A stretch of DNA of 49,976 nt from an uncultured bacterium (lineage in GTDB: Bacteria; Patescibacteriota; Gracilibacteria; Absconditabacterales; Absconditicoccaceae): assembly GCA_903953935.1 (NCBI GenBank), contig CAJBLF010000023.1:1-49976 (forward strand). Direction: 5' to 3'. Position numbers and translations under genes: made by a program. Numbering within the stretch: the stretch's first letter is position 1; each line of letters opens with the position of its first letter. The notes under the pieces were generated by a model. It was not told the DNA's origin and ran no database searches. It saw only the letters and a list, made by a program, of their open reading frames with translations. Of the stretch, positions 17,751 to 49,976 are shown piece by piece.

Positions 17751-17775
17751 TCTTTAGATAATAACAACACTACTA

Positions 17776-18351: not shown

Positions 18352-18420
18352 ACAAACACTCATCATAATCTCAAAAAAAATATTTAAAATAATACATTTT
18401 TTTATTGCATATCAATAAGC

Positions 18421-19272: not shown

Positions 19273-19304
19273 TAAATTTTTTTATTTTTAATTGCAGAAA
19301 AAAA

Positions 19305-20531: not shown

Positions 20532-20547
20532 TAGCATAAGAGATTAT

Positions 20548-22077: not shown

Positions 22078-22166
22078 TCAAAATAAGAACAAAAACAGTT
22101 GCAATAAAATATAAAAAAATTATCAACAGACGACATTCACAATATTTTTATGATTTTTTAAAAAAA

Positions 22167-23177: not shown

Positions 23178-23181
23178 AAAC

Positions 23182-25181: not shown

Positions 25182-25192
25182 ATTTTATATAT

Positions 25193-25957
25193 ATGAAAGT
25201 CACGATGCAAAATTTTAAGATATTGTGTATATTGCAAGCAAGAATGTGATCCACGAGATTGCCAGGGAAAATTCTTAAAGAAATTAAAGGAAAGACGTTG
25301 ATAGAATATGAAATCGATAGAATAAAAAAATCTAAGTATATTGATAAAATAGTTGTTGCTACTAGTATAGATAAATCAAATGACGCCTTAGAAGATTTAT
25401 GTGGAAAAATTAAAATAGATTGTTTTAGAGGAGAAGAAAATGATGTATTAAAAAGATATTATGACTGTAGTCAAAAATATAATGATTTTGAATATATAGT
25501 AAGAGTAACTGGAGATTGTCCACTAATCGATACAGATATCTTAGACAATACTATTGAAAAATTTTTAGAAGCAAATGTTGATTATTGATCAAACTCAGAA
25601 CCACCAACATTTCCAGATGGTCTAGATACTGAAATATTCAAAAAAGAAGCATTAGAAATAGCTAATACAAATGCAAAATTACCATCAGAAAGAGAACACG
25701 TAACACCATACATGAAGAAGAATTTTAGTAAAATAAACTACGCTGCAGATATAGATTATTCATGATATCGCATTACCGTTGATGAACCAGAAGATTTTGA
25801 GATAATTAGAAATCTTATAGAAAACATTTGAAAAGATGCGTGATATCTAAAATATATAGACTATATAAATGAACATTGACTTGAGAAAATAAACAATAAA
25901 TTTAAAAGAAACGAAGGATTTGAAAAATCATTAGAACAAGATAAAAAAATATTTTAG
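25193..25957 (+). CDS. SpsF-like cytidylyltransferase
   Basis: A 254-residue nucleotidyltransferase beginning ILQARMGSTRLPGKILKEIKGK (the R/S-T-R-LPGK loop of the SpsF/CMP-sugar synthetase fold). VVATSIDKSNDAL, CFRGEENDVLKRYYDC and VRVTGDCPLIDTDIL are the SpsF marks, and a C-terminal RITVDEPEDFEIIRNL follows. In the spsF/PseF group the enzyme activates a sugar acid or amine with CTP. As no separate PseF is seen, it is the candidate CMP-activating enzyme of the locus. An alternative is that it charges a different sugar handled by the neighbouring AKR and aminotransferase. Confidence 0.88.
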
Positions 25958-25978
25958 TTCTTTTTTCTATAAATTAGT

Positions 25979-27262
25979 ATGAGAAACAAAAAATCTGCAG
26001 AATTATTCAAGAAAACAATTAAAATCATTCCTTTATGAACACAGACATTTTCCAAAAGTCATCTTTTATATTATAAGGGAGATATACCTCATTTTATTGA
26101 AAAGGGGGAATGATGTTTTGTATGGGACATTGATGGGAACAAATACATAGATTATGTAAGCTGACTTTCAGCACTTGTGTTATGATACAATTGCAAAGAA
26201 GTAAATGATGCCATTCAAAAACAGTTAAAAAACTGAATACTATTTTCTCTAGCGTCACCATTAGAGTATGAACTATCCAAAAAACTAACAGAGATAATTC
26301 CTTGTGCAGAGATGGTGAGATTCGGAAAAAGTTGAACAGATGCAACGTCATCAGCCATCAGATTAGCAAGATATGTCACTAAAAGAGAAAAGGTAGCAGT
26401 ATGTTGATATCACGGACGACAAGACCGGTATATATGATCAACTACTAGAAATGGTGGAGTTCCAAAATGTGTTCAGAATTTGACACTAAAATTTGAATAT
26501 AACAATATTTCTTCTTTAGAAAAAATATTTTCTCAAAATCCAAAAGAAATTGCTGCAATTATCATGGAACCCATGACTACAGAAGAACCAAAAGACAATT
26601 TTTTACAGAAAGTAAAAGATATTTGTCATAAACATGGTGCTTTATTTATATTGGATGAAACAGTAACTTGATTTAAATTAAGCATAGGATGAGCTCAGAA
26701 GCATTTTTGAGTAACACCAGACTTGGCGGCTTTTGGGAAATCAATGGGTAATGGAATGCCGATATCGGCACTGGTAGGGAAAAGAGAATATATGCAAAAA
26801 GTAGAGGAAATATTTTTTTCATGAACATATCTCTGAGAATCTTTATCTATGGCTGCTGCCATAGCTACTATAAATTTCATGCAAAAAAATAAGGTCCAAG
26901 AGAAAATATATAAAATTTGATGAATGTTTATCAAATGACTTAGAACATTAATAAAGAAACATTGATTAGATCAATGCATATCTATTGCATGATATAACAA
27001 TCAATCAGTATGTTTATTCCAGGATTATAAATGAATAAAAGCAATACAGATAAAATCATATCTACAAAAAGAGCTTTTAGAAAAGGGAATATTATGGATT
27101 GGTAATTTGAACATGAACTATGCACATACAGAAAATATCATAAGAAAGAGTTTAGTAATATTTGATAGCTGTTTAGGCATACTCCAGAAAAAAATTTCAA
27201 ATAAGACAATATTGAAGGAGATTAAGGGAAAAGAAATTAATGATATTTTCAGAATAAGATAA
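25979..27262 (+). CDS. Class III aminotransferase (glutamate-1-semialdehyde aminomutase-like)
   Basis: A 427-residue PLP enzyme: VWDIDGNKYIDYVSGLSAL, CAEMVRFGKSGTDATSSAIRLAR (PLP phosphate loop), YHGRQDRYIGST, AAIIMEPMTTEEP, LFILDETVTGF and AFGKSMGNGMPISAL with the Schiff-base Lys. The fold matches HemL, but the context (between SpsF and a methyltransferase, no tetrapyrrole genes) points to transamination of a sugar. Similar gene trios are known from sugar clusters in other bacteria. The C-terminal part from about residue 340 is less conserved and rich in Ile/Lys. Confidence 0.9.
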
Positions 27263-27313
27263 TCAAAATAAACAAATTAAACAACATCATTTTTATCTAA
27301 AACAACAAGAAAC

Positions 27314-28063
27314 ATGAGCAAAAAAATCAAAGTATTGATATGATCCAATGAGAAAGAAATAGATAAAAGAGAAGACTTTATAAAATATTTTAAAGAAAGC
27401 CCAATACCAGATGATGAATTGCTAACAAATCTCTGAATTTATATGAACAGACAATCTCTTTCAAGATTACTTTTTATGAGCGAAATTTATACCAAAATAA
27501 TAAATACACATTGAATAATTATAGAATTTTGAGTTCGTCGAGGACAGAATTTGTGTCTATTTTCATCACTTAGGTGAATATACGAGCCATTCAACTATAA
27601 CAGAAAAATTGTGGGATTTGATACCTTTTGATGATTCCCAGAAATTGCTAAACAAGATGGAGAAAAAATAGCAATTGGAAATTATTCGGTCTCAGACAAT
27701 TATGATGAATATTTAGAAAAGATATTAGAATATCATGAAACAGAATCACCCATATCTCACATTAAAAAATATGAGTTAATAAAAGGCGATGCAACAAAAA
27801 CATTTGAAGAATATTTAGATAAAAACCCACACACTATCGTAGCGCTTGCATATTTTGATTTTGATATTTATATACCAACCAAAGTATGTCTTGAAAAACT
27901 AATGAAAAGAATTACCAAATGAAGCATCATTGTCTTTGATGAGTTAAATTGTGCAGAATTCCCAGGAGAAACACTAGCAGTAATAGAAACTATTGGACTC
28001 TCTAGATACGCCATCAAAAGGTCTCCTCTAAACCCATTAATTTCATATATCATTATCGATTAA
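27314..28063 (+). CDS. TylF/MycF-like SAM-dependent methyltransferase
   Basis: A 249-residue protein with a class I fold: IIIEFGVRRGQNLCLFSSL (motif I-like), RKIVGFDTFGGFPEIA, ELIKGDATKTFEEYL, and ALAYFDFDIYIPTKVCLEKL followed by IIVFDELNCAEFPGE, whose DFD and D-E residues correspond to the metal ligands of TylF/MycF sugar O-methyltransferases. It would place a methyl group on a sugar of this glycan; the position is unknown. It lies within the pse block, 52 bp after the aminotransferase. Confidence 0.82.
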
Positions 28064-28088
28064 TTGAATCTTTTATCCAAACAAAAAC

Positions 28089-28646
28089 ATGCAATACAAA
28101 CTATTAGATAACAACAAGTTTGAAAAAGACAAATACAGCATAGTATGTCTAAGATACAAGGATATTTATGATATAAAAAAATGGAGAAATCAACAAATGG
28201 ACATACTTAGACAGAAAAAAAAACTAACAGATAAAGAACAAATCAGTTATTACAACAACCTCATTGTCCCAACATTTAAAGAAAAAAATCCAAAACAAAT
28301 GCTTTTTAGCTTTTTGTACGATAATATATGCATATGATATTGATGACTAACAAACATTAATCGAGAAGATAAAAGGGCTGAATTATCGTTTATTGTAGAT
28401 ACAAAAAGGACAAAAAATAAAAAACTATACGAAAAAGATTTCTCGATGTTTATATATCTTATAAAAGAAGTTGCAAACGAAAAACTTTGATTTAATAGAA
28501 TATTTACTGAAACGTATGATATAAGACCACTTCACATAAAAATATTAGAGAAAAATTGATTTATATACGAATGAAGAATGAGAAAACACGTCTACATAGA
28601 TAATAAATTTATTGATTCATTGATTCATTGATACGTACACAAATAA
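28089..28646 (+). CDS. GNAT family N-acetyltransferase, PseH-like
   Basis: A 185-residue protein: LRYKDIYDIKKWRNQQMDILRQ near the start resembles the 'D...i..WRN....R' region of sugar N-acetyltransferases, then LFSFLYDNICIGYGGLTNIN, RAELSFIVDTKR, and EKLGFNRIFTETYDIRPLHIKILEKNGF (acetyl-CoA side with the 'N...EK.GF' motif near the end). The last motif is the usual GNAT motif B. In pse pathways PseH acetylates the 4-amino group made by PseC, and this is the only acetyltransferase in the locus. The assignment as PseH is by context. Confidence 0.8.
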
Positions 28647-28663
28647 TCATTTATCATTTTATC

Positions 28664-29608
28664 ATGACCAACATGTTTAAAGACAAAAAGATTTTTATTA
28701 GCTGAGGAAATGGGGTAATCGGGAATGAATTAGTTAAAAAGTTATATGATGCGTGAGCAAAACTATTCGTTGGAGATCTAAAGAAGAGACCGGAAAATCG
28801 ACCAGAAGATATTCTCTATAGAGAATGAGATTTAAACGAAATTACAAAAAAAGAATTAGAAGATTTCTGACCAGAGTACTATTTTCATCTTGCTGCAACA
28901 TTTGAAAGAAGCGAAGAAACATATGAATTTCGAGAAGAAAATTTTTGGCACAACGTCAGATTAAGCCATTATCTGATGACATTAATGAAAGATTTGCCGT
29001 CTTTGAAAAGAGTTATTTTCGCATCTAGTTATCTAATATATGAGCCAAAATTATATCTTTTCGAAGAAGCATGAAAATTATACAATCTACAAGAGGATGA
29101 TCCGATAAATCCACGTAATTTAACGTGAATGGCGAAATTAAATCACGAAATAGAATTACATTTTCTTGATGAATTCAGGTCAAAACAATTCAGCTCTATA
29201 AGTGCAAGAATATATAGAAGTTACTGAAGAGGGTCTCGTGATATAATTTCTCGTCGAATAAGAGCGTTGCTCAACAAAGAGGAAATAATTGTATATAAAA
29301 AAGAAGGAAAATTTGACTATATATTTGCTTGAGAAGTTGCAGAATGATTAATAAAAATGGCATCATCAGATAAAACATGAATTTATAATTTATGAAATGG
29401 AAATGCAAGAAGTATAGAAGAAGCACTTGATATATTAAGGACACATTTTCCAGAGATGAAATATACAGAGAAAGAAAGTAATATTCCTTACGAATGATCA
29501 GAAGCAAATATGGATACAAGTCAAAAAGCATTTTGATGGAAACCAATGATACAACTTGAAGACGGCATAAAACTCATTCTTGAATATGAAAAAGATTTAC
29601 TTCATTAA
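28664..29608 (+). CDS. NAD-dependent epimerase/dehydratase (extended SDR) with atypical active site
   Basis: A 314-residue SDR: DKKIFISGGNGVIGNELVKKL (Rossmann, TGxxGxxG variant), YFHLAATFERSEETYEF, RVIFASSYLIYEPKL, and NPRNLTGMAKLNHEIEL at the place of the catalytic YxxxK. Here the position of Tyr is Thr and only the Lys remains, so the classic proton donor is missing. YNLGNGNARSIEEAL and GWKPMIQLEDGI are normal SDR C-terminal marks. The substrate is unknown; it may bind or reshape rather than oxidise a nucleotide sugar. It lies between the GNAT and ATP-grasp genes. Confidence 0.82.
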
Positions 29609-29620
29609 GAAAAAAAGATA

Positions 29621-30601
29621 ATGTGAGAAACATCCAAAATAAATGTATTATTTACAAGCATATGAAATTGTGTCTCTATAATAAAATATTTTCGTAAAGC
29701 GAAAGAAGATCTAGGGATAAATGGCAATTTGATAGCTATAGATATAGATAAATATGCCCCAGGAATACATGTGGCAGATAAATATTATATAGTAAAAAAA
29801 TTAAATGAAGAATGATTTGACGAACAAATAATAGAAATATGTAAAAAAGAAAATATCCATCTTATAATTCCCACAAGAGATGATGACATTCCTTATTTTG
29901 CAAAACGCAAAGAAATATTTGAAAAAATGAATATAGTGTGTATGGTTCCAGAACTATCAATATCAGAAATATGCAACGACAAATATAAATTTTATGAATA
30001 TCTCACTAAACACAAAATCCCAACAATAAAAACATATGAGAATATTGTTTCATGAATAACCTTTCCCTGTATTGTAAAACCAAGATTTTGAAGTTGATCT
30101 AAATGAGTAAAAGAAATTCTCACAGAAAAAGAACTCAAAGAAACAGATACAGATGGGTGTGTAATCCAAGAAAAAGAGATATGAACCGAATACACCATAG
30201 ACTATTTTGGCGACTTTACATGAGAACCACTATGCGTTATTCCAAGAATAAGGCTAAAGGTATTTAACGGTGAATCTATATTGTGAATAACCAAAAACAA
30301 CAAAAATATTATCGATATATGTATCAAATTAGGGAATACGATGAAACTTATAGGACATAATACTATACAATGTTTTTATTATGAAAATGGAACAGTAAAA
30401 ATATTGGAAATAAATCCAAGATTCTGATGATGAGCACCATTGGGGATTGAAGCATGATGTAATAGTCCAAAGATGTTATTGGAAATGATGCAAGGAACAA
30501 AGATTGAACCAATTACTGAATTTAAAGAAGATTTAATGATGATAAGGTATACAGACAATATTTTTATTGATCAAAAAGAGATACTATGATCAAATTGATA
30601 A
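29621..30601 (+). CDS. ATP-grasp domain protein (carbamoyl-phosphate-synthase-like)
   Basis: A 326-residue ATP-grasp: NVLFTSIGNCVSIIKYFRKAK (N-terminal Rossmann), IIPTRDDDIPYF, ICNDKYKFYEYLTKHKIPT, then FPCIVKPRFGSGSKGVKEIL (ATP-binding Lys and Gly loop), VIQEKEIGTEYTIDYFG and KILEINPRFGGGAPLGIEAG (the Mg-binding E-x-N-P-R-F-G). Such enzymes ligate a carboxylate to an amine; in surface-sugar loci they may add an amino-acid-like decoration to an amino sugar. The gene overlaps the following HAD gene by 16 bp, which points to a paired function. Confidence 0.85.
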
Positions 30602-31200
30602 TTTTTGATTTAGACGACACCTTATATAAAGAGAATAGCTATGTGAAAAGCGGTTTTAGTGAGGTAAGTAAATATATAAGCAAAAAAACAAAAATACCTC
30701 AGAAAAAAATATTTACCTACATTCGGGGAACATTTAAGAGATGATGAAGAGGGAACAATTTTGACAAAGTTATTGAACACTTTAACATAAAGAACATATC
30801 AAAAGAGGAAATGATTGAAATATACAGAAAGCATATACCAAAGATAAAAATAAGCGATAAAAATATAAAGTTACTTAAATTACTTAAAAAAAAATATCTG
30901 TTATGTATTATAACTAATGGAAACCCATGAGTACAAAGAAATAAAACGAATGCTTTAGATGTGGAAAAATATGTAGATAAGATATATTATGCCGAAGATG
31001 AGTGATTTAATTACAGAAAACCACATAAACGTTTTTTTCAGAAAGCTATGAAAGAGTTCTGAACAAAGCCAAAAGAGACGATCATGATAGGAGATGATAT
31101 AACCACAGACATTGCTGGTGCAAAATCCATAGGAATAGAAACTCTCCATATAAATATAAAAACGATTGCGTCAGAAATCAGAAGAAAGATAATTCAGTAA
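30586..31200 (+). CDS. HAD family hydrolase
   Basis: 204 residues: LIIFDLDDTLYKENSYV (motif I, nucleophile D and D+2), LCIITNGNPGVQRNK (motif II), Lys in YRKPHKRFF (motif III) and IMIGDDITTDIAGAKS (motif IV). A small helical cap lies between motifs I and II. This group usually dephosphorylates sugar or nucleotide phosphates. It could release the phosphate of the PseI product, or belong to the ATP-grasp pair; the start codon lies inside the previous gene. Confidence 0.9.
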
Positions 31201-31229
31201 AAAAATATTTATATTTTTATCACGAAATA

Positions 31230-32273
31230 ATGAAAGACATCAAAATTGGGAACATTCTGATTGGAACCACCCATAAACCATTTATTATTGCTGAAATGAG
31301 TGGAAACCACAACCAATCACTAGAAAGAGCATTGAATCTCGTGGATGCTGCTGCAGAAGCAGGAGTGTCAGCGCTCAAATTACAAACATATACTGCCGAT
31401 ACAATAACAATGAATAATGGATTTACTATCAAAGAGAAAGATTCTTTACGACATGGAAAAACACTTTATCAGTTATATGAACAAGCACATACCCCTCGAG
31501 AATGGCACAAAGAGATAATGGAAAGAGCAAAAGAAAAATGAATACTGTGTTTTAGTACTCCGTTTGACGAATCAGCGGTGGACTTTCTTGAAAGCTTAGA
31601 TGTGCCAGCATATAAGATAGCCTCTTTCGAAAATAACTATTTTGGATTGTTGAAGAGGATAGCACAAACAGGAAAGCCAGTCATAATGTCTACATGAATG
31701 ACCAATATATCAGACATAGACAAAGCGGTAAGAGTTCTTCGCGAAAATTGATGTAAGGATATCATCTTATTAAAATGTACAAGCACATATCCAGCAAGTC
31801 CAGAAAACACAAACATATCCACAATACCTCATATGGCAGAGACATTTAAATGTCATGTAGGCCTTTCAGATCATACTATGGGGATATGAGTATCTGTAGC
31901 TTCTGTAGCTTTATGAGCAAGAGTCATAGAAAAACATTTTACACTAAGAAGAGCAGATGGTTGAGTAGATTCGACTTTTTCATTGGAACCAGAAGAACTA
32001 AAAAGCTTAGTCATAGAGACAGAAAGAGCATTTTTATCAATAGGCGAAGTAAATTATGGAATTCAAGATTCAGAACAGAATTCATTAAAACATAAACGTT
32101 CAATATATATAAATAAATCAATCAAAAAATGAGAAAAATTTTCTAAAGATAATATTAGGGTGATAAGACCATGAGATGGTATAAGTCCTGAATACTATGA
32201 TTTATTAATATGAAAAACGGCAAATAGCGATATGGAAGGATGAAAACCATTGACACGAGAAAATATATTATAA
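31230..32273 (+). CDS. pseI: Pseudaminic acid synthase
   Basis: PseI condenses a 6-deoxy-amino-hexose with phosphoenolpyruvate to pseudaminic acid. 347 residues: [53 protein letters not shown] and [11 protein letters not shown] form the NeuB-type TIM barrel, with [28 protein letters not shown] and [29 protein letters not shown] and the SAF-like C-terminal domain ([25 protein letters not shown]) complete it. It stands 30 bp after the HAD gene and closes the nonulosonic-acid block. The 'AEMSGNHN' form is typical of PseI rather than NeuB. Confidence 0.96.
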
Positions 32274-32298
32274 AAGCTTTATTTAAAAATTCAGTAGA

Positions 32299-33609
32299 AT
32301 GTCCATTAATATAGCTAAATACATAAAAAACATATCAGAATATGATAAAAAGATAGTAAACAATATGAATTTTGAGATAAACAAAAAGATATATCGTCAA
32401 TGAGAAAATTTTAAATATGCATCACCGAATTCTAGAGCATATTATGTATTGATATTTTCAAAGATAATACAGATGATATACAAATCATATAAAAGACTAT
32501 TTCAATATAACCATAGTAAAAACTTAATAAAAAAGGGGGGGGAAATCTGAAAAAAAGAATGAAATAGTGATGAAAATGTATTCTTGGTTGATATTCCATT
32601 TCTAGATAAAGAGTTAAAAGAAATATGATATACTACATTAGTTTCACCTCGAAAAGCATGATTTAAGAACATAAAAATAATGATACAAACGATAAAATTA
32701 AGAAAAATATTTTTATATGGTGATTTAAAAAATCTATTCAGTAAAAAAACTATAAATTACATCATAGAATACAAAGAAAAATTAAGAGAAATATATAAAC
32801 AAGAAGATATAAAGGCAATATTTGTAAACAATAACGTAACATTCTTTGAAAATCTATCACTTGATATCTTTGATGAATTACAAAAACCTAGTTTTGAATT
32901 TGTCCATGGATGTCCAGGTATTTATCGAAGCTCACTAAACAAATCTAATTATACACTGGTTCGATGAGAAAAGATGAAAGAAAATTTTGTAAGGTTATGA
33001 GGAATGGACCCAAATAAAGTATTGGTCACATGACATCCTTACTACCAAACCTTACCAAAAAGAGAATTAAGGTTTTGATTAGAAAATATCCTAGTATTAA
33101 ATAAATCTAATTCTTGGACATGATGAATATACAGAGAAGACTCTATAGCATGAGATATATGAGCATCAATATACTATCTCTATTCTATAGAGAATACCCT
33201 TAAAAAACATGGAGTAAAATCGGTTAGATTACGCATTCATCCAGACGAAGATATGAATCGATATAAAAAACACATAAATACAGATTTTTTTATCTTTGAT
33301 AAAGAACCATTATCAGAATCATTGAATAAATCTACATTAGTAATTGGTCCATGATCCACGGTGTTTTTAGAATCCATATATCACGGTGTTAATTACCTAT
33401 TTTATGAACCATGAGAGAACAACATAGACTGTATGAACTTCCCCTTAACTCCACCTTTTGACTGATCAGACTCCAAAGCTCCTGTTGCTAGAAACGAAGA
33501 AATGCTCTTCAAGATGATAGAACAAAAAAAAATGCTTGATAAAAGCATATTCAATGATTATATAAAGACACCATTCGATATAGGTTTTCTGAAATGACTA
33601 ATCAAATAA
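32299..33609 (+). CDS. Probable glycosyltransferase-like protein, family not recognised
   Basis: A 436-residue protein with Lys/Ile/Asn-rich composition. The C-terminal half has GT-B-like marks: LVTGHPYYQTLPKR, then RLRIHPDEDMNRY, LSESLNKSTLVIGPGSTVFLESIYHGVNY and FYEPGENN; the 'GPxST..lEs...G' loop occurs in capsule and polysialic-acid-type transferases and CDP-glycerol enzymes. The first half is variable. It starts 25 bp after pseI, so it may attach the nonulosonic acid or be a transferase of the exported glycan. A run of eight G at about 32537 lies inside it, a spot prone to slippage or error. Confidence 0.55.
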
Positions 33610-33639
33610 GATATTTTTAATTAATAGTCCTCTTTACAT

Positions 33640-34416
33640 ATGAAGTATAAAATAAAAAAAACGATAGAATTTTTGAAGACAAAATGATTGCTAGGAACAA
33701 TAAATTTCATCTATTATTATTTCAAAATTAGAAAAACAAGAAAAAATTTAGCATACAAATATATAAGAGGAAACGGAATAGAGATATGATGACTCATAAA
33801 CCCCAACCCAGTAGACACATCACTTGCCAAAGTAAAATATGTTGATTATCTTGATGAAGAAACATTAAAGAAAAATTATGATAATGAATTAGCAAAAGAT
33901 AATCTGCAAAAAATAGATTATATATGCAAAGCTGATAATCTAGACAAAATAGCATCAGATTCACAAGATTTTATTATAGGGAACCATCTCTTTGAACATC
34001 TTGACAATCCAATCAAAACACTTATAGAACGATATAGAGTACTTAAAAACGGATGAATAATCTTTATGGCTATACCAGATAAAAGAAGGACATTTGATAT
34101 AAATAGAGAAAGAACGCCATTAGATCATATGGTATTAGATTATCAACAACCATCCGAGGAAAGAGATCGACAGCATTATTTAGAATATGCAGGGATAGAA
34201 TATCCCGACTCACAAGAGAGAGAAAAAGAAGCAAAAAGACTGAAATCAATAGACTATAGTATTCATTACCATGTATTTATAGAACAGGACATATTGGATA
34301 TAGTAAATCGATGCAACAAACATGCGAGTGTGAAATTTGAAGAAGTATATACAAAACATACAGCAAAAAACAAAGCTGATAACGAATTTATAATTATTTT
34401 AAAAGCCAAAAAATAG
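33640..34416 (+). CDS. Methyltransferase domain protein
   Basis: 258 residues. The recognisable part is FIIGNHLFEHLDNPIKTL followed by RVLKNGGIIFMAIPDKRRTFD, a Methyltransf_11-like tail (H..EH..dp...l.e..RvLKpGG). The first 60 residues hold no clear motif I; IRGNGIEIGGLINPN may be a remnant (E-I-G-G). The last part is charged and ends in an Ile/Lys-rich strand. It ends with TAG directly adjacent to the ATG of the following GT2. It likely modifies the glycan, but this is only inferred. Confidence 0.8.
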
Positions 34417-35388
34417 ATGACAAAAATATCCATAATCACAACATCATACAATCATAAAGATTTTATAGGATACACTATACAGTCTATTTTAGATCAGACA
34501 TTTTCTGATCGAGAATTGTTGATTGGAGACGATAGTCCAGGCAATGAAACATGGGAAACAATAGAATGATATGTAAAAAAAAATCCTAAAAAAATCAAAG
34601 CACGACATAATACTCCTAACAAATGAATTGCAGAGAATATGAATTTTTTAATAAGCAAAATATGTCCAGAGTCTGAATACATAGCATTTTTGGAGGGAGA
34701 TGATATGCGAGATAAAGATTATCTCAAGGATAAACTAGAAGTTTTTACCAAATATCCCGAAGCAAAACTCGTGTATAATAATTTTAATTTTATAGATAAG
34801 AACAATACCGTAATACAAAAAGATATTTTTGGATTCAGATGAATAAAAACATATCAGAACGAAAAAATAACTGCCGATGACTATGTATTAGCCAATGTAT
34901 GACCAATTATATCATGGAGCACATTTATGATACACAAAGACATGATAGAAAAATATCATATACGATCTTTAGATCCAAAAAACAAGGTATGTAGTACATC
35001 AGAATACGATTTTTGGTTACAAGTAGCAACACATCACAATGTATATTACATGAATCAAACACTCACATTATATCGTAGACACGAAAACAATCTTTCGAGA
35101 TCTAATCCAAATCTAATGAAAGAGCTATCGGATTTAATAAAATATTATCATAAGAATCATATTATATCAGATAATGCATACAACATAAAACTAAGTCATA
35201 ATAATTTAGTACAGTCATTAATATATCTAGAGAATGGAGACAAAAAGAAAAGCCTACATCATTGGAAAGATGCTATATCATATAATAGATTTAATTATAT
35301 AATAATGAAGTTGTGAATAGTATTCTTATTGATACTGCCACTCAATCGGAGCAAACGAATACTTTCAAAACTAATTAAGAGAGGGTAA
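34417..35388 (+). CDS. Glycosyltransferase family 2
   Basis: 323 residues of GT-A fold: MTKISIITTSYNHKDFIGYTI, LLIGDDSPGNETWE, NTPNKGIAENMNFLI and EYIAFLEGDDMRDKDYL (the D-x-D motif as EGDD). SEYDFWLQVATHHNVYYM and LTLYRRHENNLSRSN are typical of this GT2 group. It ends in a helix with hydrophobic residues. It starts on the base after the methyltransferase stop, and its TAA (35386-35388) lies in the loop of a bidirectional hairpin shared with the convergent gene. Confidence 0.93.
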
Positions 35389-36318: not shown

Positions 36319-37206
36319 TTAAAACAAACCCATCTGCACAGGATTCTGCAATTTCTTTTTCAATTCATCCAATGTTTTTTCAAAAGAATTGAAATGATAT
36401 TCTCCTACTAATACTTTCTTATACGTAACAAAATCAAGTTCCAAGGCAAAATTAGCAAGATCAGTCGTTTCTATCTCTGGAATAGGTTTCAATTCAATCA
36501 ATCCTCTACTCTTATAGACATCTTCTTTCCCAGTAATCAATTTTTGTTGTACATCTCAAGTAATTTCATCAATATGAATATAGATATTGTCGATGGTCTG
36601 ATATTTTTGAATTAAGTCAGATGCTTTTTTGGGTCAGATTCACGTAATTCATTTGATATTATCAGCACTATCCCCTACCAAAGCTAAATAATCCAAAATA
36701 TATATAGGATCAAAGCCATATTCTTTGACAAAAGATTCTGTAGTAGTTTTGAGGTCTTTCATAGAATCCACACAAAAGACATTGGTAGCCAAAAGTTGTT
36801 TCAAATCCTTGTCTCACGAATAGATATCTATCTTCATATCTTTATCAGCCTTATATTTCATCGCTAAGGTATAAATAATATCATCAGCCTCATAGGTAGG
36901 CACAACTAGACTAGGGATTCACAATTGTTCAACGATTGCTTGAGTAATAGGAATCTGATGTTTAAAATCATCGTCCATCTTTTTGCGATTAGCCTTATAT
37001 TCTGGATATTCTTCATGTCTCAGTGTCTTCACTGGAGAATCCCAAGTAATAACAAAATAATCTGGTTTTTCTTGAAAGATTTTCATCAACATACGGAAAA
37101 ATCCATACACAACATTCACATTATGACCATCTTGATCAGTCATAGCAGGAAATGCATAGTAAGCTCTATACAGGAAACTCGATCAGTCGATAAGAAAAAA
37201 CTTCAT
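36319..37206 (-). CDS. 5'-3' exonuclease (FEN/Pol I N-terminal domain type)
   Basis: A 295-residue stand-alone version of the DNA polymerase I 5' nuclease, which removes RNA primers and flaps. Starts MKFFLIDGSSFLYRAYYA at the ATG at 37206-37204. Then ITWDSPVKTLRHEEYPEYKANR, PTYEADDIIYTLA (the acidic cluster), IYSGDKDLKQLL and ALVGDSADNIKGITGIGPKKASDL (helix-hairpin-helix). The polymerase and 3' exonuclease domains are absent, so it is the short form. A short intergenic repeat lies upstream. Confidence 0.96.
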
Positions 37207-37282
37207 AGAAAAAAATAGATAATAAACGTTGATATATATAGAATTTTCGATATAGATTACAAGTCAGGAAAACAAAAAGATA

Positions 37283-37413: not shown

Positions 37414-37815
37414 ATGCACACTATCACCACCCCAGAAGAAATGCTACAATTCTGAATAGATCTTGCAAAAGAACATAAAATTTTGCTCCTTCATGGAGAA
37501 CTCTGAGCAGGAAAAACATTATTGACCAAAGGCTTCGCACAAGGATTGGGACTGAATAAACATCACGTACAAAGTCCTACTTACGCATACCTCAACGTCT
37601 ACGATTCAAAACTGCTTCACATAGACATGTATAGAATCAAAGAATATAGTGAACTTGTAGAAAAATGAATTATCGATCAGATAAATGAATTCGAGTATAT
37701 CGTTATTGAACGACCAAAATTCATAGATAAACTACCGATAAAAAACAGTAGCGTAATCAATATAGAAAAAAACTCAGAGACAGAGAGATTGATCACAATA
37801 AAAAAAGGCGAATAA
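37414..37815 (+). CDS. tsaE: tRNA threonylcarbamoyladenosine biosynthesis protein TsaE
   Basis: TsaE is the ATPase partner of TsaD/TsaB in t6A tRNA modification. 133 residues: MHTITTPEEMLQFGIDL, LLLHGELGAGKTLLTKGFAQGLG (Walker A, one Gly of GELGAGKT is TGA), QSPTYAYLNVYD and LLHIDMYRIKEYSEL. The Walker B-like IVIERPK is variant (canonical W-E/PE region shortened). Length is slightly short but normal for the core. The 3' end overlaps the terminator of the minus-strand gene next to it. Confidence 0.92.
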
Positions 37816-37869: not shown

Positions 37870-39726
37870 TTACATAGTGATATTATATTCTGCTAATGCT
37901 CTCTGGAACTGATTAATATGATAATTAGAAAGATTTTGTTTACACGCATTATCATCATCTCTAAGAAGTTTTAAGATAACTAGGAAGCTATCAAATTTTT
38001 TAGTAATTTCAGCTATATCACCAGAACCCAAAGAAGCATTTTGTTTAACCTTATCAAGTACAAACAAAGTAAAGGCATTTACCAAAGTTTTCATCTGTGC
38101 CTTCTGGAAAATAGGCATTTGAATAGTGAACTTATTGTTTCTTACATTAAGTTCAACAGGAGTATAACTCAAAGAATTTTTACAAACATTAAATTTTTCT
38201 ATTTCAGCCTTGAGAACAACCGCCAATGTAGACAATGTTCAGCTCAATACCACTTCTTTGACTGTAGTAGCGATAGGAACAATAGATACATGAGATAATA
38301 GAGTTCATAACGTTGTCTGTAAAACATCTCCAGTAACTAATCTCATATTTCATGCTCTATCATAAATAGTCATAGTAAACGTATAGAGTTTAGATCTTTC
38401 TATTCACGAAAAGACAAACTGTTGAGCATTGAGATAGTCTGCACTAGAACCAGTGAGAGAAGCTCATGATGTTTGCTGATATTCAATAACATACCTTACA
38501 GCTTCACTTGCAGTAAAATTAAGATAAACTCATGAAGCATACCCACTAAAGACAAATCAAGAAACGACAGGAAAGGTCTTATCAAACACAAGTCATCCCG
38601 TAAAAATGACTGAACCAGTATTTCAAATAGCATCAGAGAAATTAATCGTAGCAACAAGCGGTCATTCGGTAGTTCATGATGTTATAGTCCACGTATATGA
38701 ATACGCCAATCATGTAACGACAGAACTTGTAGGAACCATACTTGATCACAAAGTAACCTGTACACCACTCAAAGGTTGGCTTGCAATAAAATTCAAGGTA
38801 ACGACACCACTGACATTGAGAGATCACGTAGTTGATCAACTAGATACCAAAGCAACAGAGTTCAAAGTAGGGGTTTCATTATTTATAGTGAATGATTGTG
38901 TTTCAAATATAGACGTCTGATTTGAGGTAATCAATCTCAATTTGTATCCAGAGAATACACGTGAATACGTTCAGGTATATGTTCCTGTATAGAGATAGTA
39001 TTGACCACTTGTACCTGTTCATATAACATGATACAATCCTGATTGTTGAAAACTATAGAGTGATTTCGAATTAAACGCATATCACGTAGATCAAGTTGAA
39101 ATAGTTGCTAAAGTAATCCATTGATTGTTATGGTCCCATAATTGAAGTGATAATCAGGTAAGACAATCTCCTCATGAATATGCCCAAGAAATAGGGAATA
39201 TATTTCTGACAACAGATCACGATACAGGCGAATTCCAAAGGATATCTGCACCATCACATATACCATTTCATGAAAGAGTAAGTGTTCAAGTTTGGACAAT
39301 TCAAGCCTGAGCATCTCAAGTTGAATTAGATCATGTTTGTATATCTCAAGTTTCTCCAAGACATCATGTTATATATCATCAAGTTCGATATCAACCAGTA
39401 AGTTCTCATCAAGTTCGATATCAGCCAGTAAGTTCTCATCAAGTTCGATATCAGCCAGTAAGTTCTCATCCAACCATTGTTTGTCAGGTAAGGACTTGTC
39501 AAGTTAGATATCCTCACGTTAGATATTCTCCTGTATAGTATTGACCAGTAAGCGTACAACCACTTGCTAAATCTGCAAAGGTAGAATGATGAAAATATTC
39601 TACGACAGAAACACCAAAAACAAGTAAAAAAAGTTTGACGATAGCAAATCCACCAAATATTCCAAAAAGGTACTTTTTGTGATGACACTTAAGATGAGTG
39701 TGGATCTGACGAAAAGTTGTGTTCAT
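37870..39726 (-). CDS. Large surface protein with N-terminal anchor and Gly/Thr repeats
   Basis: 618 residues from the ATG at 39726-39724 to TAA 37872-37870; an ATG nine bases upstream is an alternative start. The N-terminus has HLKCHHKKYLFGIFGGF and one membrane segment (residues about 21-43), the same motif as in the divergent giant protein. A Thr/Gly-rich stalk follows (residues about 65-145) with three 10-residue repeats ELTGGYRTGG (30-bp DNA repeats at 39381-39470, two or three Gly per unit being TGA). Then come beta-rich, Ig/FN3-like segments (GSVVRNIFPISWAYSGGDCL, DKTFPVVSGFVFSGYAS) and a helical C-terminus (ALAEYNITM). Probably an extracellular stalked protein; function unknown. The C-terminal helical region from about residue 495 differs in composition. 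Confidence 0.85.
39381..39470 (-). repeat. 30-bp tandem repeat (three copies) inside the surface protein gene
   Basis: AAGTTCGATATCA(A/G)CCAGTAAG-type units at 39381, 39411 and 39441, differing at one base in the first copy. They are in-frame and encode the ELTGGYRTGG stalk; partial copies flank the array. It is not CRISPR: there are no spacers. Confidence 0.9.
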
Positions 39727-40235
39727 AATAATCAATAAATTAGATAAATATATAAAATGAGATATATACTATGCAAACGTTTAACGGTAAACAGTTAGCT
39801 TATAAGTAATTATATACAGAAAACATGTTTTTGTCAAATTTTAGATACATATAAAAAAGAATATAGTACAATAAAGAGAAAAACACATAAAAGCAAAAAA
39901 GAAACAATATTTTAGAAAAAAACTGAAAGAAGCAATACAAAATAAACAGAAAATATTTTTGTAAAGTGAAAATTACAAAGAGATTAGACAAAAAAAATGT
40001 CTACATATGACAACATTAAAAATAAGAAAATAAAGCATAAGCAGGATAAAAAGACATTATATATGTCAACATAGACAAGAATACGACAAAAAGACCAATA
40101 TGTGTCAGGGGGATGTCATTGAAAAAACAGCATAAATAAGCATAAAAAATGCTGTTTCTTAAAGATTTTTTTGGTATAAAAAAAATTCAAAAGAAACAAA
40201 AAAAATGACACGGAAGTTTATATCATTATGTATGC
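39727..40235. other. Divergent intergenic region between two surface protein genes
   Basis: 509 bp, very A-rich, no supported gene. It holds repeated ATATGTCAACA/ATATGACAACA-like words at about 40005, 40062 and 40098, candidate operator sites, a hairpin at 40125-40157, and a TTTTTTTGGTATAAA tract (40167-40180) that could be part of a promoter for the giant gene. Promoters for both genes must be here, but I cannot place them with certainty. Confidence 0.5.
40125..40157. terminator. Long hairpin upstream of the giant surface gene
   Basis: AAACAGCAT and ATGCTGTTT form a 9-bp stem around a 15-base loop; a T-run follows on the minus strand and, after a gap, on the plus strand. It may be a terminator or a 5' leader structure. 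Confidence 0.5.
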
Positions 40236-43200
40236 ATGCAACCTATCATTGACAAGCTGCATTATCACGGAAAGAGGGTATATAGACATGCCAAGAAACA
40301 CCACAAGAAATATCTTTGGGGTGCTGTAGGATTTTTTTGATTGTTTAAATTATTCAGTTTTTTATTGCTGAGCTTAGCAGGATATACAGCAATACAAACC
40401 AATATAACACAAGCAAGAACTCCTTTCACTATATGAACAGATAATTTTGATTTTTTTATAGGCGATCCCAAATGTGGAAAAGAGATCATAGAAACAGCAG
40501 AAACTATAATATATCCTTGTATACAAGGAGAAGCGATAGGCTTTATGTGACTAATGAGATTTAGTTTTAAAAACATAGAAGATTTAGCAACACAAGAACG
40601 AATAGCATTTTCAAACGATTATCCATTAACCCTTCCAGAAGGAACAGTAGATAGTGTAATACTGTATGCACAATATGCATATGATCCAGGAGTTCCTTGA
40701 AAAGAAGTAGCAGATGATGTAATAATAACAAATACTACTCCATCAACTGGAACAATGGATCCTTTCGATTTTTTTATTGGCGATGAGAGATGCATAGAAA
40801 GCACAACAACAAATAGACCTAGCGATAGTACAGCTAATCTAATATATCTCTGTGTCTCATGATCGAATTTAAATAAAATGACAGTAATGAGATTTAGCAA
40901 TAGTGGGCTAGATTATTTAAGTGGTGAAAAACGAACGGATTATAGTAATACCTACCAATGGGATTTATGATCAAGTCCCGAAGGAAAAACAAATATATTT
41001 GCAGAATATGGATATACAACAGGAGATACAACAATAAAAACAGGAAGCATAACCATGTCGGTTACATCAATATGATCTGGGGATATTGCAGGATCAAAGA
41101 TCGTATCTAGTGGAGACAACATCCTGACAGACAATATGTATCGTATAATCAAATCTACAAATAACAACGATCAAATAACACTAAACAGTGTGGACACATC
41201 AAGCACGATCAGTGTAGGATTATGAGATCGGGACGGGAAGATTATGGCACCAACACCAATAACTGATGATAGGAAAGCAGCTCAAGGAGAAACATGATTA
41301 CCAGAAGACTTCATTCCAACACAAACAATATTAGTAGGTGCAGATTGAGTAAGTCTAACAATGAGCAACAATGTAAAATTTGATATCTCATTTCAAGTAA
41401 CTGGCTGAGAAATATCACAAGGGACGACATTACCGATTTATTATTCTTATGATGGAAACAATCGAAATATCCTAGACGTTTGATGTACAGTTGATGCAAC
41501 AAATATGTGTACATTCTCCTCATCACATCTTACACTCTTTGCAGTAGGAACAACTGGGTCAAGTAGTATGGCAACCCGAAACAACACAGATTTCATTAAC
41601 CAAAGATTTCGAGACACAGATCCGACCACAGGTCAAATTATTTACGCATTATTTGGATCATGATCAGATCGTAGTGCATACACTTATCATCGAACAAACA
41701 ATTGTACACCAACAAGTGTCAACATTATTAGAATGACCAAATGAACAAAATGACCTATAAATCTAACAGGAAATAATGTATATATTCTCGAAAGCGGAGA
41801 TTATATATCTACAGGAACGATAAGCATAAGCTGAAATTGTATAGCAATTGTGGGAAGTGGAACCGTAACCATCAAGAAAAATTTTGGAGGAAATCTTTTA
41901 TATGCTGTAAGTAAAAACAATATCATCATAGACAACATCCAAATAAATGGAAATGAGAATACAGGATATTTGATGGGATTACAAACCGTAGGATCTATTA
42001 CTATGAACGACATACAAACATATCACAATTCTGGAACTAGCATAATATTTCAAGGCTGAAGTGGTGCTTTGATTAACAACATACAGATGTTCAACAACAA
42101 AGGAATTGGTTTGCGATTATGGTTGAATACCTATAGCACAATAAACAATAGTAAATCATATAACAACACACAAGGGATTTATATACTGAGTTCAACATGA
42201 ATAACAATTAATAATAGTCAGGTATACAATAATAAAAGCGATTATGGAATACTAGTAAACAATACCAAACTACTAGCCATCAACAATATTCAATCATATA
42301 ACAATGGAGCATATGGTATCTCGCTAGTAACTAATACTACTGGAGTTAGAATAAACAATTCAAAAATATTCAATAATAATAGTGGTAATACACAGGTATA
42401 CGTTGATGGAACAAGTAACTGATGATATAATGGAGACAATATAGCATATCCTAATGCATGATTTAATAATTTACTTGGGAACATATACGACGCAACATTA
42501 TTACGGGCAGAAGGACATCTCTATACAACAGATTTATGATTCAATTGTGATTTTGTAAATAATCCGATTAACTGATCAGGCAATTGGATGTATAACAATA
42601 GCTATTGTAATCAAACAGGATATATATCACCAACATGGACCGGATATGCAATCGTAAAATATTTCTATGGTAATAATATACTCTTAGGAAATTATGTAAT
42701 GAGACAAATAGCACCAGTAGTACGAAGTTGATCAACACTATCATTATCAAAAATACCATATCATGGACATAGATTTATTGGAGAATATGATGATGATATA
42801 GACAGGGACATCAACATTCCTATAGCATTTTTTACATGAGAAACACCACCACTAGGATATAATGTAAACAATACATGATATTTTAGAGTAAGAGCATATG
42901 TGTATGAACCAAACCTAGCAAGTCTTTGACGGAATGAAGACATAAGCGGAAGTAACATGTACTATAGCATATACAACAAGAATATGGTCTTGATGATGAA
43001 TTTTGACAGCATAAAAGAAATAGGAGAAGTATGAGGAGTTGTGAGAGATCTCTCTTTATACAAAAATATAGGTATCGTAAACTGATCAACAGCACGAACA
43101 AGCAATGGTAAATGGAATGGAGCATTTAGTTTTGCTTCTGCAGGAGATAGGATAACAACATTAGATAATCCAAATTTAAGAGTATCAACAGATTTCACCT

Positions 43201-46200
43201 TATCGACTCGAGTAAAAAGAAATACAACAAACACAAGCCATCAAATATTTTTTTACGACAACTGCGCTTCTACATATACAACTGCCTATGGAGTAGACAT
43301 ATATAGTGACAATAAACTGAGATTGGTATTTCAAAGTGGAACCACTTCAAACATAGCAACGAGCACCGCAACCATAGGAACCTCACGAACACATGTAGCA
43401 ATAACCCACACAAACAACTATACATATTTCTATATCAACGGTATATTAAACACATGAGTTTATCATCCATATAATCCATTTTATGCTTCATGAGTAGGAT
43501 CTACAAACTGCAATTGATTAGCTATTGGACAATACGCTGATGGAATATATACCAATAGTCAAATGAACGGATACATAGATGAAGTACGTATATATGATAT
43601 AGCATTATCGAATTGAGATATAGATATGATATATCGTAGCAACCTTTCATCTAAACCCGATCATCGAGAATATGTTGTTGATTATACAGGAGTAGGATGA
43701 TGGTCAATAGGAACACACACATTCTGATTTCCAAATTCATATTATATAAAAGATAGTAACCAAAATGAAATTATTCCTGTTACATGATACGTAGTGAAAT
43801 CACAAAGTTGTACATGATCACTAATAGGATGGAATAACGACAATTTTATTAATTCAGGATTTTGGAACAGCAATCCTGGATTTTGTGATATAGTAATAGC
43901 ACTCTTTGGGACTGGATTGGCTGGCAACGACACAACAGCATATACGAACAATCGAAGTGGTTGGAATACAAGTACCACATGCAATGATCAAAATATGAGT
44001 ATAGTATATCTCACATGAGGAATAAACAAACTGCCTAATTATATGCCGGACAATACAATTTACGTATTAGCTTCAGGAAATTATCTTCAAGACTATGAAA
44101 TACGTATGGGGGCTTGTTCTGCTATTATAGGACAAACAGGAAGTATAAAATTATATGGAACATTAACACTACCAAAATGACTTATTCTCATGAGCAGTAA
44201 CCCCAAAAACATAATAGATAATTTTTACATCTATGGAATTGCTGATGGATCGGGATGAACACATGCTCCAAACGCAAACAGTATTTCTAGTGTCTGAGCA
44301 TATAGAACAATAAATAACATTAAATCATTTGAGAGTATAATTGGTATCGATGGCAAGGACAATATGTATGATACAACAAACAATACTACCATCTATAGTG
44401 GTGAAATAGGTATAAAATACACTAACAGTGTATATTCGATAATTTCAGATTCGCAAACATATAATGCGACACAAAACGGAATATCAATAGAAGGATGAAC
44501 TAATTTTTTGACAACAAACAATATCCAATCATATAACAACGGAAGCCATGGAATAAAGATGAACATAGATGGAACATATATAACAATAAACAATAGTCAG
44601 ATATTTAACAATGGTGGTGATGGTATATTTATAGATTTAGCAACATATTATCCAACCATAAACAATACCCACATATTTAACAATTCAGGTAATGGTATAT
44701 CTTTTATAAATTGAAGCAATTCAGGAATATTAAACAACGTATGGATATATAACAATGGATTAACATGAATACATATTGGAGCATGAACACATAAATATTA
44801 CGGTAGACTAACAATATTTGCAAACAACACCAACACCCTTTCAGTTTGATTAACTGCATGATTATCTTCTACCTATACATCATTATGATGGACATGAGGT
44901 AGCTTAGATACAGGACAATGTATGAACTGTGCCCGGACAACCAACCCACAAAACTCATCATATATAACACTAATAAATACTGCTACATATCCAAAATGTC
45001 AGATGAGAGGAATTAGTACCGTATGGTCAAATTCAGAAAATATAAATTATACCTACGGTATAAATTTAACAGGACAAAAGATTCCGGTATTCTATTCAGG
45101 TACCATATTAACAAATTCAAGTATAGTATACAGTGGAAACAAATATGTAGCAGAAACAAACAAACTATCACCCGATTATACCAACACACAATGTAGCTGT
45201 TCAGGTCATACCTATCGATGGAACAACAATAGTTTTCTAGATACATGATTTCGAAATAACGGGACTCAACCAGACTATTGTGATATCATTGCAGCAGTAT
45301 ATGGTACCGGAGGAGCAGGACAAGATACTACTGCATACAACAAAAATCGAGGTTCTCAGTGGACTGGACAATGTAATGTAGAAAATGTGGAAGTGAAATA
45401 TATGACATGAGGTACAGGAAAAATAGACTACCTAATGAATGATCACACCATATACGTTCTAGGAAGTGGAAATTATATTCAGACAGGAACAATATATGCT
45501 AATTGGTGTAATGGTATACTATGAAAAACAGGAAATATCGTGCTATATAGTACAACATGATTAAGTAATGGTATGATTAGTAACGTAAGCACACGCTATT
45601 CGGTATTTGATAATTTACGTATAAATTGAACATGATGAGGACCAGTACCTAATCACACCAACAATAGACAGGGCATATATTTTGATACAGCATTAAGTAA
45701 CACAATAAATAACATACAAACATATAACAATTATTGGTTTGGAATATACATAGTAAATTCATTAAATAATATCATAAACAATAACCAAACGTATAATAAT
45801 GATATGTATGGGATAGGGATAGATAGCTTTTCAGAAGATAATATATTCAACAACATTCAGAGCTATAACAACGGCAGCATGTGAATACTAATAGGAGAAA
45901 ATGCATTTTACAATACATTCAACAACATTCAATCTTATAATAATAATAGTAACGGAATACAGATAGGAAGCTTTTCAAGTGGAAACACACTTAACAATGT
46001 ACAAAGTTACAATAATTGATGAGATTGAATAATAATTCAGGAGGGTTCTCACAATAATAATCTGAACAACATCTGGAGTTATAATAATGAAAGATATGGA
46101 ATAGAAACAGACAGTTCCGATTATAATAAATATTTTGGTACAGGAAAATTTTTTAATAATGGAAGCTGAAACATATATCTAATGTCATCTACAGATTTGA

Positions 46201-49200
46201 TTACAGGTATATTTAATAGCGTAGGACGAAGTCCTGGAATCTTGATAACTACAGGAACAATGTCCTGGGACTACATAACCAATCCTACAACTATAAGCAA
46301 TTATTTTCTTCCATGGACAGGTCTCCGAACAGGAATTAGAGCACAGCAAAACAATTATCTCTATACAACAACAGACAAATATTCGTATGGTAGTGGTATC
46401 TTATTACAAATAGAACCAGTCTATTACAATTGAGCAGTACTTCAAGCAGGAGGAATATTTAGTTGAATAAAATATATCTGATCCTCTATCACCAGATACA
46501 CATGATTACTCTCATGAATAACTTCTACGATTACAAACGTCTGACCTTTTACCGTAACATGATTGGCCAATCAGACATATATAAACACATATTCATTATT
46601 TGGAGATATTGCTAGTTATAAAATTGGACAGACAATAAATACAAGTACAGGGATTTCAGTAACAGCTGGAGTTGGAGCAAAACGCATTGTAACACAAATA
46701 TATTCGGGAGGAGATTTTGCAACTCACTTCCAAACAGATACATCATTGATGGGAACGATATCATGTGCGTCACGATGGAACAACGATAACTTTATAACAG
46801 GAGCATTTTGGACAAATGGAACACCAACAGATCAAAACATCATTTGTGCTTTATACGGTACTGGAGCAGGTGATCCTAATGGTACAGCATATACTAAATT
46901 TCGAAATGGACGGAATACAACACAATGTAGTGGAACACAAATAACAGTAATCAAAACAGGAAATTTGAATATTACTACCCTAGCATCCAACACTATTTAT
47001 GTACTTACCTGACAGATTTCTACAGGAACAACAAGCATAACATTAGCATCATGCAGCGCAATAATCAGTAGTCAAAGTACATGAACCACCTTCTATAGTA
47101 CCACTTACGCAACGAATGGTATGTTTTACGGAAACGCAAAAAATTACGTCATCTTTGATAACATAACAATTAACGGAAGTGGAAACTGAGCTGGATGATG
47201 ACACACACCAATGAACAACTATTACGGAATACAGCTTTTAAGCAATCAAAATAATAGTTTTAATATGGTGAGAGTACAAGACAACACAGTATGAATCCGC
47301 TTATACAACGACAACAACGGATATATAAGTAATAGTCAATTCTATAATAACACAGAAGGAATACATATGCTTATTTGATCTAACAACACAATCAACAATA
47401 GTCAATTTTACAACAACAGTATTGGAATAACGGGGACTTCAAGTTCTTACAACAGCATAAATAATAGTCAATTCTATAACAATAATTATTGAATATATAT
47501 ATCAGCTTGTATGATAAGCATGAACACCAGCCAATTTTTTAATAATGCAAGTGGAGGAATATATATAACAAATAGTCCGAACACAAACATAAACAATAGT
47601 AAGATATATAATAACGACATAGGAATAAATATTGATAGCAACTCCACTAGTGGGAAATATTATGGTACATCGTTTATATTCGGAAACAAATCAAGCAATA
47701 TAACTGGTACAACAACAAATTTAATAACGGGAACATTCAATTCAGTTTGATGGACCGTAGGAGAATTAATAACTACAGGAATTTTTTCTTGGGAATACGT
47801 TACCAATCCGATCAATACAATAAACAATTATTTAATTTCATGGACAGGTCTTCGAACGTGAATAATGTGACCACAATCAACATATCTAGGAAAAACAACA
47901 GACAAACACTCGTATGGTAGTGGTATCTTGCTACAAACACAACCAGTATATTATACAGGATCAACACTTCAGACAGGATGAATATTTGACGTAACAAAAT
48001 ACATTTGATCATCTATCACTAGATATACATGATCACTTTCATGAATAGCTTCAAGTTCATATACAACGTGATTATTCACCGTTACTGGTCTAGCTAACGC
48101 AACATGGATAAGTAATTATTCATTATTTTGAGATATCTTCGCATATAAGATTTGACAAAGTATAAACACAAGTACAGGCATCTATCTATTATCATGAGAT
48201 GGAACCAAACGCATAGTAACACAAATATATTCTGGAACAAATTTCTCTACACACTTTCAAACAGATACTTCATTAATAAACAGTCAAATAGTTGCTTGTG
48301 AACTTTTACCAGCTAATGCTCATTATTATGGATGAGTAACAACATATAATATTACTCAAAATCGGAATTATCAGATACCTGGTCGAGAACCAACATCAGG
48401 AGCATATTATGAGGATAATACCCCTAATCAATACACTTGTGAATATGCCTGTGATAATAACTTTACACGAGTATGAGCTATGGAGGTAAATCTTGGGCAG
48501 ATAACACTTGGTTCACTTACTTTCAGGTCCATACTGGATACTGAATGAAATGTGTGGGTTTCTTATATAGGTGAATGAAATAAGATGCAAGTAAAGAAAA
48601 CATCTTCAACAGGACTAGTATTAGTAAATTGGACGGGAGTATCGGATTACACATTAACTTCAGATTCATCACTTGGTTTGTGGTTAGATTCAAGCAATAA
48701 TCCATATGCATATTATTGAGTGTATAACACTACACCAAAAACGATAAAAGAACTTACAGGTAGTTCTCGAGTACAGATAGCAATGCTTACATGAGATAAG
48801 CCAAGAATAATAACAGATTATGAAAATAACTTATATCTATTGAGTGCTGTAGCTGGTACACGACAAATCCGTAATAATATGACCCAAAATTGGTCTACAG
48901 GTACATTCCCATCTGCGAATACGGACGGATGATGGATACTAGATAAAAACTGAAGAGTAGTGTTTGGTGGAACGAATTATATGTATATATATGAAAATTG
49001 AGCGCGAATAAAGTATACACTAAGTAAGACCTATACTAATTGAGCATCATCAGTAGTAGATAATGTTTGAGGTACGTATCGGATTTGACATAACGCAAGC
49101 AAACTCTTGATAACCTATTTGTCGAGTACGGGTAATTTAACTAATCGATATTTTGATGGAACCAATGGGTTAGCTAATATAGCTGCAGGTTATGCATATC

Positions 49201-49976
49201 AAGCAGGGGTAGTAGATTCTCTAGGAAATCTTCGAGTAACTACCATGCAAAACAATTTTTGAGTAGCAAAATATAATGGAAGCACTCGACAGTATCGATC
49301 ATGATTGACTATTCATGGAGCCATAGATTATGGTCCTACTATACGAGAAAGTAAATTGTGAGGAATACGAGCTCTTCATGAAAGTTTTGTTGATGATAAA
49401 ATATACTGAGCATACTATAGTGGTTGAATACGAGAAACTGATATAGAGGTATCTAGTGGTATGGTAAATTGAACAGGTACTATGAATAAAGTTATCAATA
49501 CAAACTGAGACACTATGATATGATATATAAATGTAGCGGGAGAATATGTTCTTACTACGCCAGAAGAGTGATGTTCACCAGAACAAGTAAGCGCTGCCTG
49601 TCAGGATATAGCAGATCCTAATGGGGTATTTATCAATGGATTAACTTGATATATTGTCTATCAAACATGGAATGGAACATCATGGATACCAACCACCTGA
49701 TCATATTATGACGATGGAATCTTAATTGCCAACACCTGTGAATATATGTGTAAAGATAATTACATATACAGCTGAAGCCTTTGTGTAACAATACCTCCTA
49801 TAGTAGGACAAGCATATATATCTAGTTGAGTGACAGGTATGTCTGTTGCTTTGAATAATTACTACAAATGAATAATAGATATCAGTGGAGCGGTAAGTGA
49901 TAATCTATGATTAAATACGGGAACATGTATGTATACAACAGGAAGTACACGAGCACCAGCGACATATTCAGGTACT
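40236..49976 (+). CDS. Giant beta-helix/LamG surface protein, 3' end outside window
   Basis: One frame without TAA/TAG from ATG 40236 through the window edge (3,247 codons visible). N-terminus: basic, with HAKKHHKKYLWGAVGFF and one membrane helix (residues about 28-50). Then two FDFFIGD..C domains (about 69 and 175), CTFSSSHLTLFAVG (about 425), and four modules headed by F-I-x(n)-ALFGTG-like blocks (about 450, 1200, 1660, 2180), each followed by a parallel beta-helix of INNxQSYNNxxGI rungs (about 550-730, 1340-1510, 1800-1960, 2320-2480). A LamG-type domain sits at about 915-1130 (DEVRIYDIALS). A duplicated beta-domain lies at about 1980-2175 and 2485-2685, propeller-like strands at about 2750-3110, and Cys-rich CEYACDNNF and CEYMCKDNY segments. 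Probably a cell-surface adhesin; the role is inferred from architecture. Confidence 0.85.

Follow-up and report, generated by a model that had tools for sequence, protein, structure and literature searches.

A motif-bearing N-terminal module on unrelated surface proteins in one family of Absconditabacteria

The window analyzed here is a 49,976-nucleotide stretch of DNA (GenBank assembly GCA_903953935.1, contig CAJBLF010000023.1, positions 1 to 49,976) from an uncultured bacterium of the Absconditicoccaceae. Two neighboring genes on opposite strands encode a 618-amino-acid protein, which we call family B, and a giant surface protein; both begin with the same His/Lys-rich module. We found this module in 59 proteins from 16 genomes, at most 12 or 13 of them per genome, all belonging to one family of SR1/Absconditabacteria (Candidatus Absconditibacteriota). 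The module is probably an extended, motif-bearing Sec signal peptide peculiar to this lineage. It would mark selected surface proteins and work much like the YSIRK signal peptides, to which it is unrelated in sequence.

The shared N-terminal module and its conservation

We used genetic code 25 (TGA encoding glycine) for all reading frames. The two genes and their modules are as follows:

37870..39726, minus strand: family B gene, encoding the 618-amino-acid protein that starts MNTTFRQIHTHLKCHHKKYLFGIFGGFAIVKLF
39574..39726, minus strand: N-terminal module of the family B protein, MNTTFRQIHTHLKCHHKKYLFGIFGGFAIVKLFLLVFGVSVVEYFHHSTFA, a predicted signal peptide with putative cleavage after STFA, a conserved [ST]xA site
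39667..39684, minus strand: HHKKYL core of the family B protein, residues 15-20 (pattern match)
40236..49976, plus strand: gene of the giant surface protein, open at the contig end, with beta-helix and laminin-G-like domains
40236..40415, plus strand: N-terminal module of the giant, MQPIIDKLHYHGKRVYRHAKKHHKKYLWGAVGFFGLFKLFSFLLLSLAGYTAIQTNITQA
40299..40316, plus strand: HHKKYL core of the giant (pattern match)

We assigned the start codon of the giant to position 40236, not 40149, because this methionine is common to its orthologs at loci L102 and L090, which have no upstream methionine; HHKKYLWGAVGFFGLFKLF therefore corresponds to residues 22-40. The original prediction held that the two proteins share an N-terminal motif and differ in the remainder. 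We confirmed both points: HHKKYLxGxxGxFxxxKLF is present in each protein, and BLAST places their mature parts in separate groups. The shared module reaches beyond this motif, comprising a His/Lys-rich region, the motif, a hydrophobic stretch and [ST]xA.

Reversed-pattern controls and a hold-out profile rule out chance or low complexity as the source of the motif. The HHKKYL pattern matched three sites in the DNA of the window's own genome versus none for the reversed control, and across nine genomes of the genus the HKKYLxG pattern matched up to three sites per genome versus at most one for the control. At many HKKYLxG sites the motif is N-terminal in a long reading frame; the remainder are out of frame or short. 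A profile built from family B N termini only recovered the N terminus of the giant at E=2.9e-6, and the two HHKKYL copies in the window differ in synonymous codons at four of six positions. Together with the separate BLAST groups, these results indicate a similarity far beyond chance that is limited to the N terminus.

In the genome of the window, a profile of 17 N termini (A2) identified five copies of the module; a related genome had as many as 13, and other genera had copies as well. The window's family B module scored a profile E-value of 2.6e-19 in its own genome and that of the giant 9.9e-17, both rows having themselves been in the seed. When 353 genomes of the class were searched with a 44-row profile (A3), convincing matches occurred in one family only, in genera g1, g11, g20, g21 and g22; outside this family we found only weak, chance-like matches (best E 5.4e-4). 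The module is thus lineage-specific, as had been proposed for a tag of Gracilibacteria/Absconditabacteria, but its range is narrower, covering five of the 22 genera of a single family. We found no module in IMG/VR viral contigs, no Pfam or NCBIfam model that matches it (a few single members give weak matches, best E 0.0088), and no paper mentioning the motif string in a text search.

The module has a fixed order: a His/Lys-rich n-region, the motif H-x3-HHKKYL[FL]GxxGGFAxxK where the hydrophobic core begins, a hydrophobic stretch and an [ST]xA c-region. It is N-terminal in 59 of 59 proteins, with usually 17-30 and at most 81 residues from the initiating methionine to the invariant tyrosine. The n-region consists of 23% His, 20% Lys and 6% Arg with nearly no Asp or Glu and has a median net charge of +5, whereas mature parts contain 1.1% His and 2.9% Lys. 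Conservation by column across the 59 proteins is highest for Y12 (100%), K24 (98%), G15 (95%), H8 (91%) and H4 (89%), followed by K11 and F20 (84% each). In the c-region, Ala occupies position -1 in 93% and Ser or Thr position -3 in 77%, and an AxA-type site is present in 54 of 59 proteins, 24-47 and mostly 31-36 residues past the tyrosine. The module therefore has the basic n-region, hydrophobic core and small residues at -3 and -1 expected for Sec and signal peptidase I (SPase I), and judged from its sequence the layout, with a long motif-bearing front and [ST]xA, is that of a Sec/SPase I signal peptide. In the predicted structure of family B, the module region is uninformative (predicted local distance difference test score, pLDDT, <40).

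Other signal types fit poorly. A twin-arginine motif, the mark of a Tat signal, is found in none of the 59 proteins. One of 59 is weakly lipobox-like and there is no consistent Cys at the cleavage site; the SGC following the family B module resembles a lipobox but, about five residues past [ST]xA, is likewise not consistent with one. By inspection, the Glu at +5 after Gly of a type IV prepilin-like signal is absent.

The motif is more strongly conserved than the proteins that carry it. Mean identity within family B is 60% in the motif, 42% in the mature protein and 33% in the hydrophobic and c-regions, and motif identity exceeds mature identity in 45 of 45 pairs (the pairs are not independent). 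The adjacent gene for an SLH protein, c1, shows no such excess, with an ordinary signal peptide that is 31% identical against 40% for the mature part. Synonymous codons of HHKKY are randomized, and the conservation is therefore at the protein level and old. Moreover, at E<1e-3 the family B hold-out profile recovered 32 proteins that do not belong to family B, with unrelated open reading frames appearing only above ~0.01. Overall, the hold-out recovery, the excess of motif identity and the randomized codons indicate that the motif has been kept by protein selection and does not reflect a recent DNA copy.

Cargo proteins and gene neighborhoods

BLAST grouping of the mature parts yields several unrelated groups of cargo. 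A large group contains giants with beta-helix, LRR, laminin-G or Ig domains, several of them with C-terminal SLH domains. Family B proteins comprise the N-terminal module, a Thr-Gly-rich repeat region, Ig/FN3-like domains (moderate confidence in the predicted structure) and a conserved C-terminal helical domain. Further cargo includes a zinc metallopeptidase with an HEXXH motif, small proteins encoded in tandem, and singletons, among them a DUF5122 repeat protein. Recurrence on unrelated large extracellular proteins, which the original prediction had anticipated, is what we found: the proteins are mostly large, and the motif lies nearly always within their first 60 residues. With mature parts in separate BLAST groups, the motif is not confined to full-length homologs; nor does it mark many cytoplasmic proteins, as we recognized no cytoplasmic family among the cargo (the small proteins are uncharacterized).

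Ordinary signal peptides coexist with the module in the same genomes, for example in the window gene at 8064-9164 (MKKLLFLLSFFALLGFTFAA), in c1 and in some other SLH proteins. We rejected SLH proteins as an obligatory partner of the module: some of them lack it, and c1 is more widespread than the module, with several module-free genera having c1 and no family B gene beside it. Two SLH proteins without the module (L075 5210-6652 and L089 4899-6530) have another N-terminal pattern in common, K-x-YRHI...VGI with a hydrophobic stretch.

Three related module proteins adjoin SLH-protein genes (L075 6951-8363, L089 13084-14586 and L080 2221-3723), the first two being HEXXH zinc metallopeptidases. It is possible that these metallopeptidase-related proteins are surface processing enzymes; as the enzyme that processes the module, the metallopeptidase was rejected, being found in only three of 16 genomes. 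The window's own genome encodes a short relative of the metallopeptidase N terminus (L077 397-840, G000:C31) that ends before the peptidase domain. At L078 (G004:C47), five or more small module proteins are encoded in tandem at 9135-14347, several with an (I)DDIAH motif, and related small proteins occur in L076 and L084 near a ComF-like gene. At L098 8363-10188, a module giant is followed by two WxLIP_PGBD-like proteins (PF06030; the first above cut-off at 28.6 bits), and this pair beside a giant suggests that SR1 bacteria have a WxL-like cell-wall system.

In most module genomes, c1 is followed by family B and then by a tsaE gene and a Pol I-type exonuclease gene. The latter two are found in the window as:

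37414..37815, plus strand: tsaE-like ATPase gene, conserved downstream neighbor of family B (cluster c4, 9 loci; named by sequence inspection)
36319..37275, minus strand: 5'-3' exonuclease (Pol I exonuclease-like) gene, conserved neighbor of family B (cluster c2, 11 loci; named by inspection)

Family B occurs once per genome in 14 of 16 module genomes and in none without the module. Of the two genomes lacking a typical family B gene, G025 carries a diverged relative, and none was found in G045 (81% complete). Outside the family B locus, we found no neighbor gene shared by module loci.

The last 72 bases of the window (49905-49976) are identical to the first 72 of another contig of the same genome, C22 (L186, G000:C22 1-9000). 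There the open reading frame of the giant continues for 1171 codons (~4394 amino acids in total), followed by a 331-amino-acid membrane protein and by c1 on the other strand. From this exact 72-bp overlap, the sole basis for the join, the giant and the membrane protein seem to lie between c1 and family B. The surface-protein genes of the window also adjoin a long surface-glycan locus (15882-35388, by inspection) containing rmlB/A/C/D-like genes, a flippase, glycosyl- and methyltransferases, and a NeuB-like gene at 31230-32273.

Export route and alternative readings

We searched 49 genomes of the family for export components, namely SPase I, SecY, SecA and sortase. The first three each occur in essentially one copy per genome, whether or not the genome has the module; the few second matches are weak, fragmentary or confined to individual genomes. 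Nearly all genomes encode sortase, also those that lack the module. Within the protein families searched, we thus find no support in the 49 genomes for a dedicated accessory Sec system or a second SPase I. The original prediction had set the motif apart from typical Sec signals as a dedicated export or anchoring tag, with a co-conserved peptidase or translocase to be sought. The recurrent N-terminal tag on unrelated surface proteins stands; its end is a typical SPase-I-like [ST]xA, no dedicated peptidase or translocase was found, and anchoring is plausible for a minority of cargo only.

We therefore favor an extended Sec signal peptide. Module cargo would be exported through the single general SecA/SecYEG, and the single SPase I would remove the module in most cases. 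Some component, for instance a SecA face or a site in the membrane or envelope, may read the motif and so set where or when export occurs, much as YSIRK/GXXS signals route their cargo in staphylococci. In a minority, namely the metallopeptidases and some small proteins, the module is probably retained as an N-terminal membrane anchor; for the metallopeptidases, this follows from a longer hydrophobic stretch and the lack of a clear c-region.

Several points weigh against this reading. The metallopeptidase members just described depart from it, a conserved Lys within the hydrophobic stretch is atypical for an h-region, and some SLH proteins of the same genomes do without the module. Clustering of conserved residues on a helical face is suggestive only (permutation p of 0.03-0.07, which loses significance once angle scanning is taken into account), and some of the loci searched were picked because they hold the module.

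A more specific and doubtful proposal is that the module is a spatial address, its His/Lys/Tyr/Gly motif sending adhesins and S-layer-type proteins to one envelope zone via a receptor. Such a zone might be the prey-contact face, in host-attached or predatory reduced-genome bacteria with one SecA, SecYEG and SPase I.

Alternatively, the module could be an uncleaved signal anchor, with the His/Lys part cytoplasmic, the hydrophobic stretch spanning the membrane and the surface proteins hanging from it. The length of the hydrophobic stretch is consistent with this, as are the metallopeptidase and small-protein members without a clear c-region; moreover, the cargo has no C-terminal transmembrane segment and no LPXTG (0 of 59, with some proteins cut by contig ends). 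We consider such an anchor unlikely as a general explanation, since Ala and Ser/Thr at the stated frequencies and at fixed spacing are a signal-peptidase-I signature, and several giants own C-terminal SLH domains that would anchor them.

Less likely again is an ordinary signal peptide of no special function, spread by duplication or 5' shuffling and conserved through descent alone. Recent paralog groups in genomes G004 and G024 fit this idea, as does the position of the giant gene between normally adjacent SLH and family B genes, but the motif outstrips the mature protein in every family B ortholog pair while the neighboring ordinary signal peptide does not, synonymous sites are randomized, and the cargo groups are unrelated. 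Finally, a dedicated translocase or peptidase, for instance an accessory Sec system or archaeosortase-like enzyme, could read the tag. This reading has precedents in KxYKxGKxW (accessory Sec) and PEP-CTERM (exosortase) but is improbable here given essentially single-copy SecY, SecA and SPase I, sortase with or without the tag, and no common neighbor outside the family B locus.

The module offers a sequence handle on the surface proteins of an uncultured, host-dependent lineage, and candidate adhesins can readily be listed from its genomes by means of it. In cells with essentially one Sec machine, the sorting of cargo by one translocase becomes a directly testable question.

Comparison with known signal peptides

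KxYKxGKxW signal peptides, which use accessory Sec (SecA2-SecY2), have a long basic n-region with a motif and occur on large adhesins. The module shares the long basic, motif-bearing n-region but differs in having no second SecA/SecY and no Pfam match. The extended signal peptide region (ESPR) of autotransporters, found on very large beta-helical adhesins, is a long n-region that contains conserved residues (PMC2805444). The module differs in that no Pfam model matches it and in that the Pfam matches of its cargo include no autotransporter barrel domain.

The closest likeness is to the YSIRK-G/S signal peptides of staphylococci and streptococci, represented by models PF04650 and TIGR01168. The module is not a member of this class by these models, as PF04650 gave no match over cut-off in the 49 genomes. 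It further differs in its motif, HHKKYLxGxxGGFAxxK, in its long His-rich n-region, in its phylum, and in cargo that are not LPXTG sortase substrates. In both, however, the motif directly precedes the hydrophobic core or coincides with its start. YSIRK/GXXS signal peptides act with ordinary SecA and SecDF and direct secretion to the septum (PMC5962339). The module suggests that motif-coded signal peptides have arisen independently outside Firmicutes and Proteobacteria.
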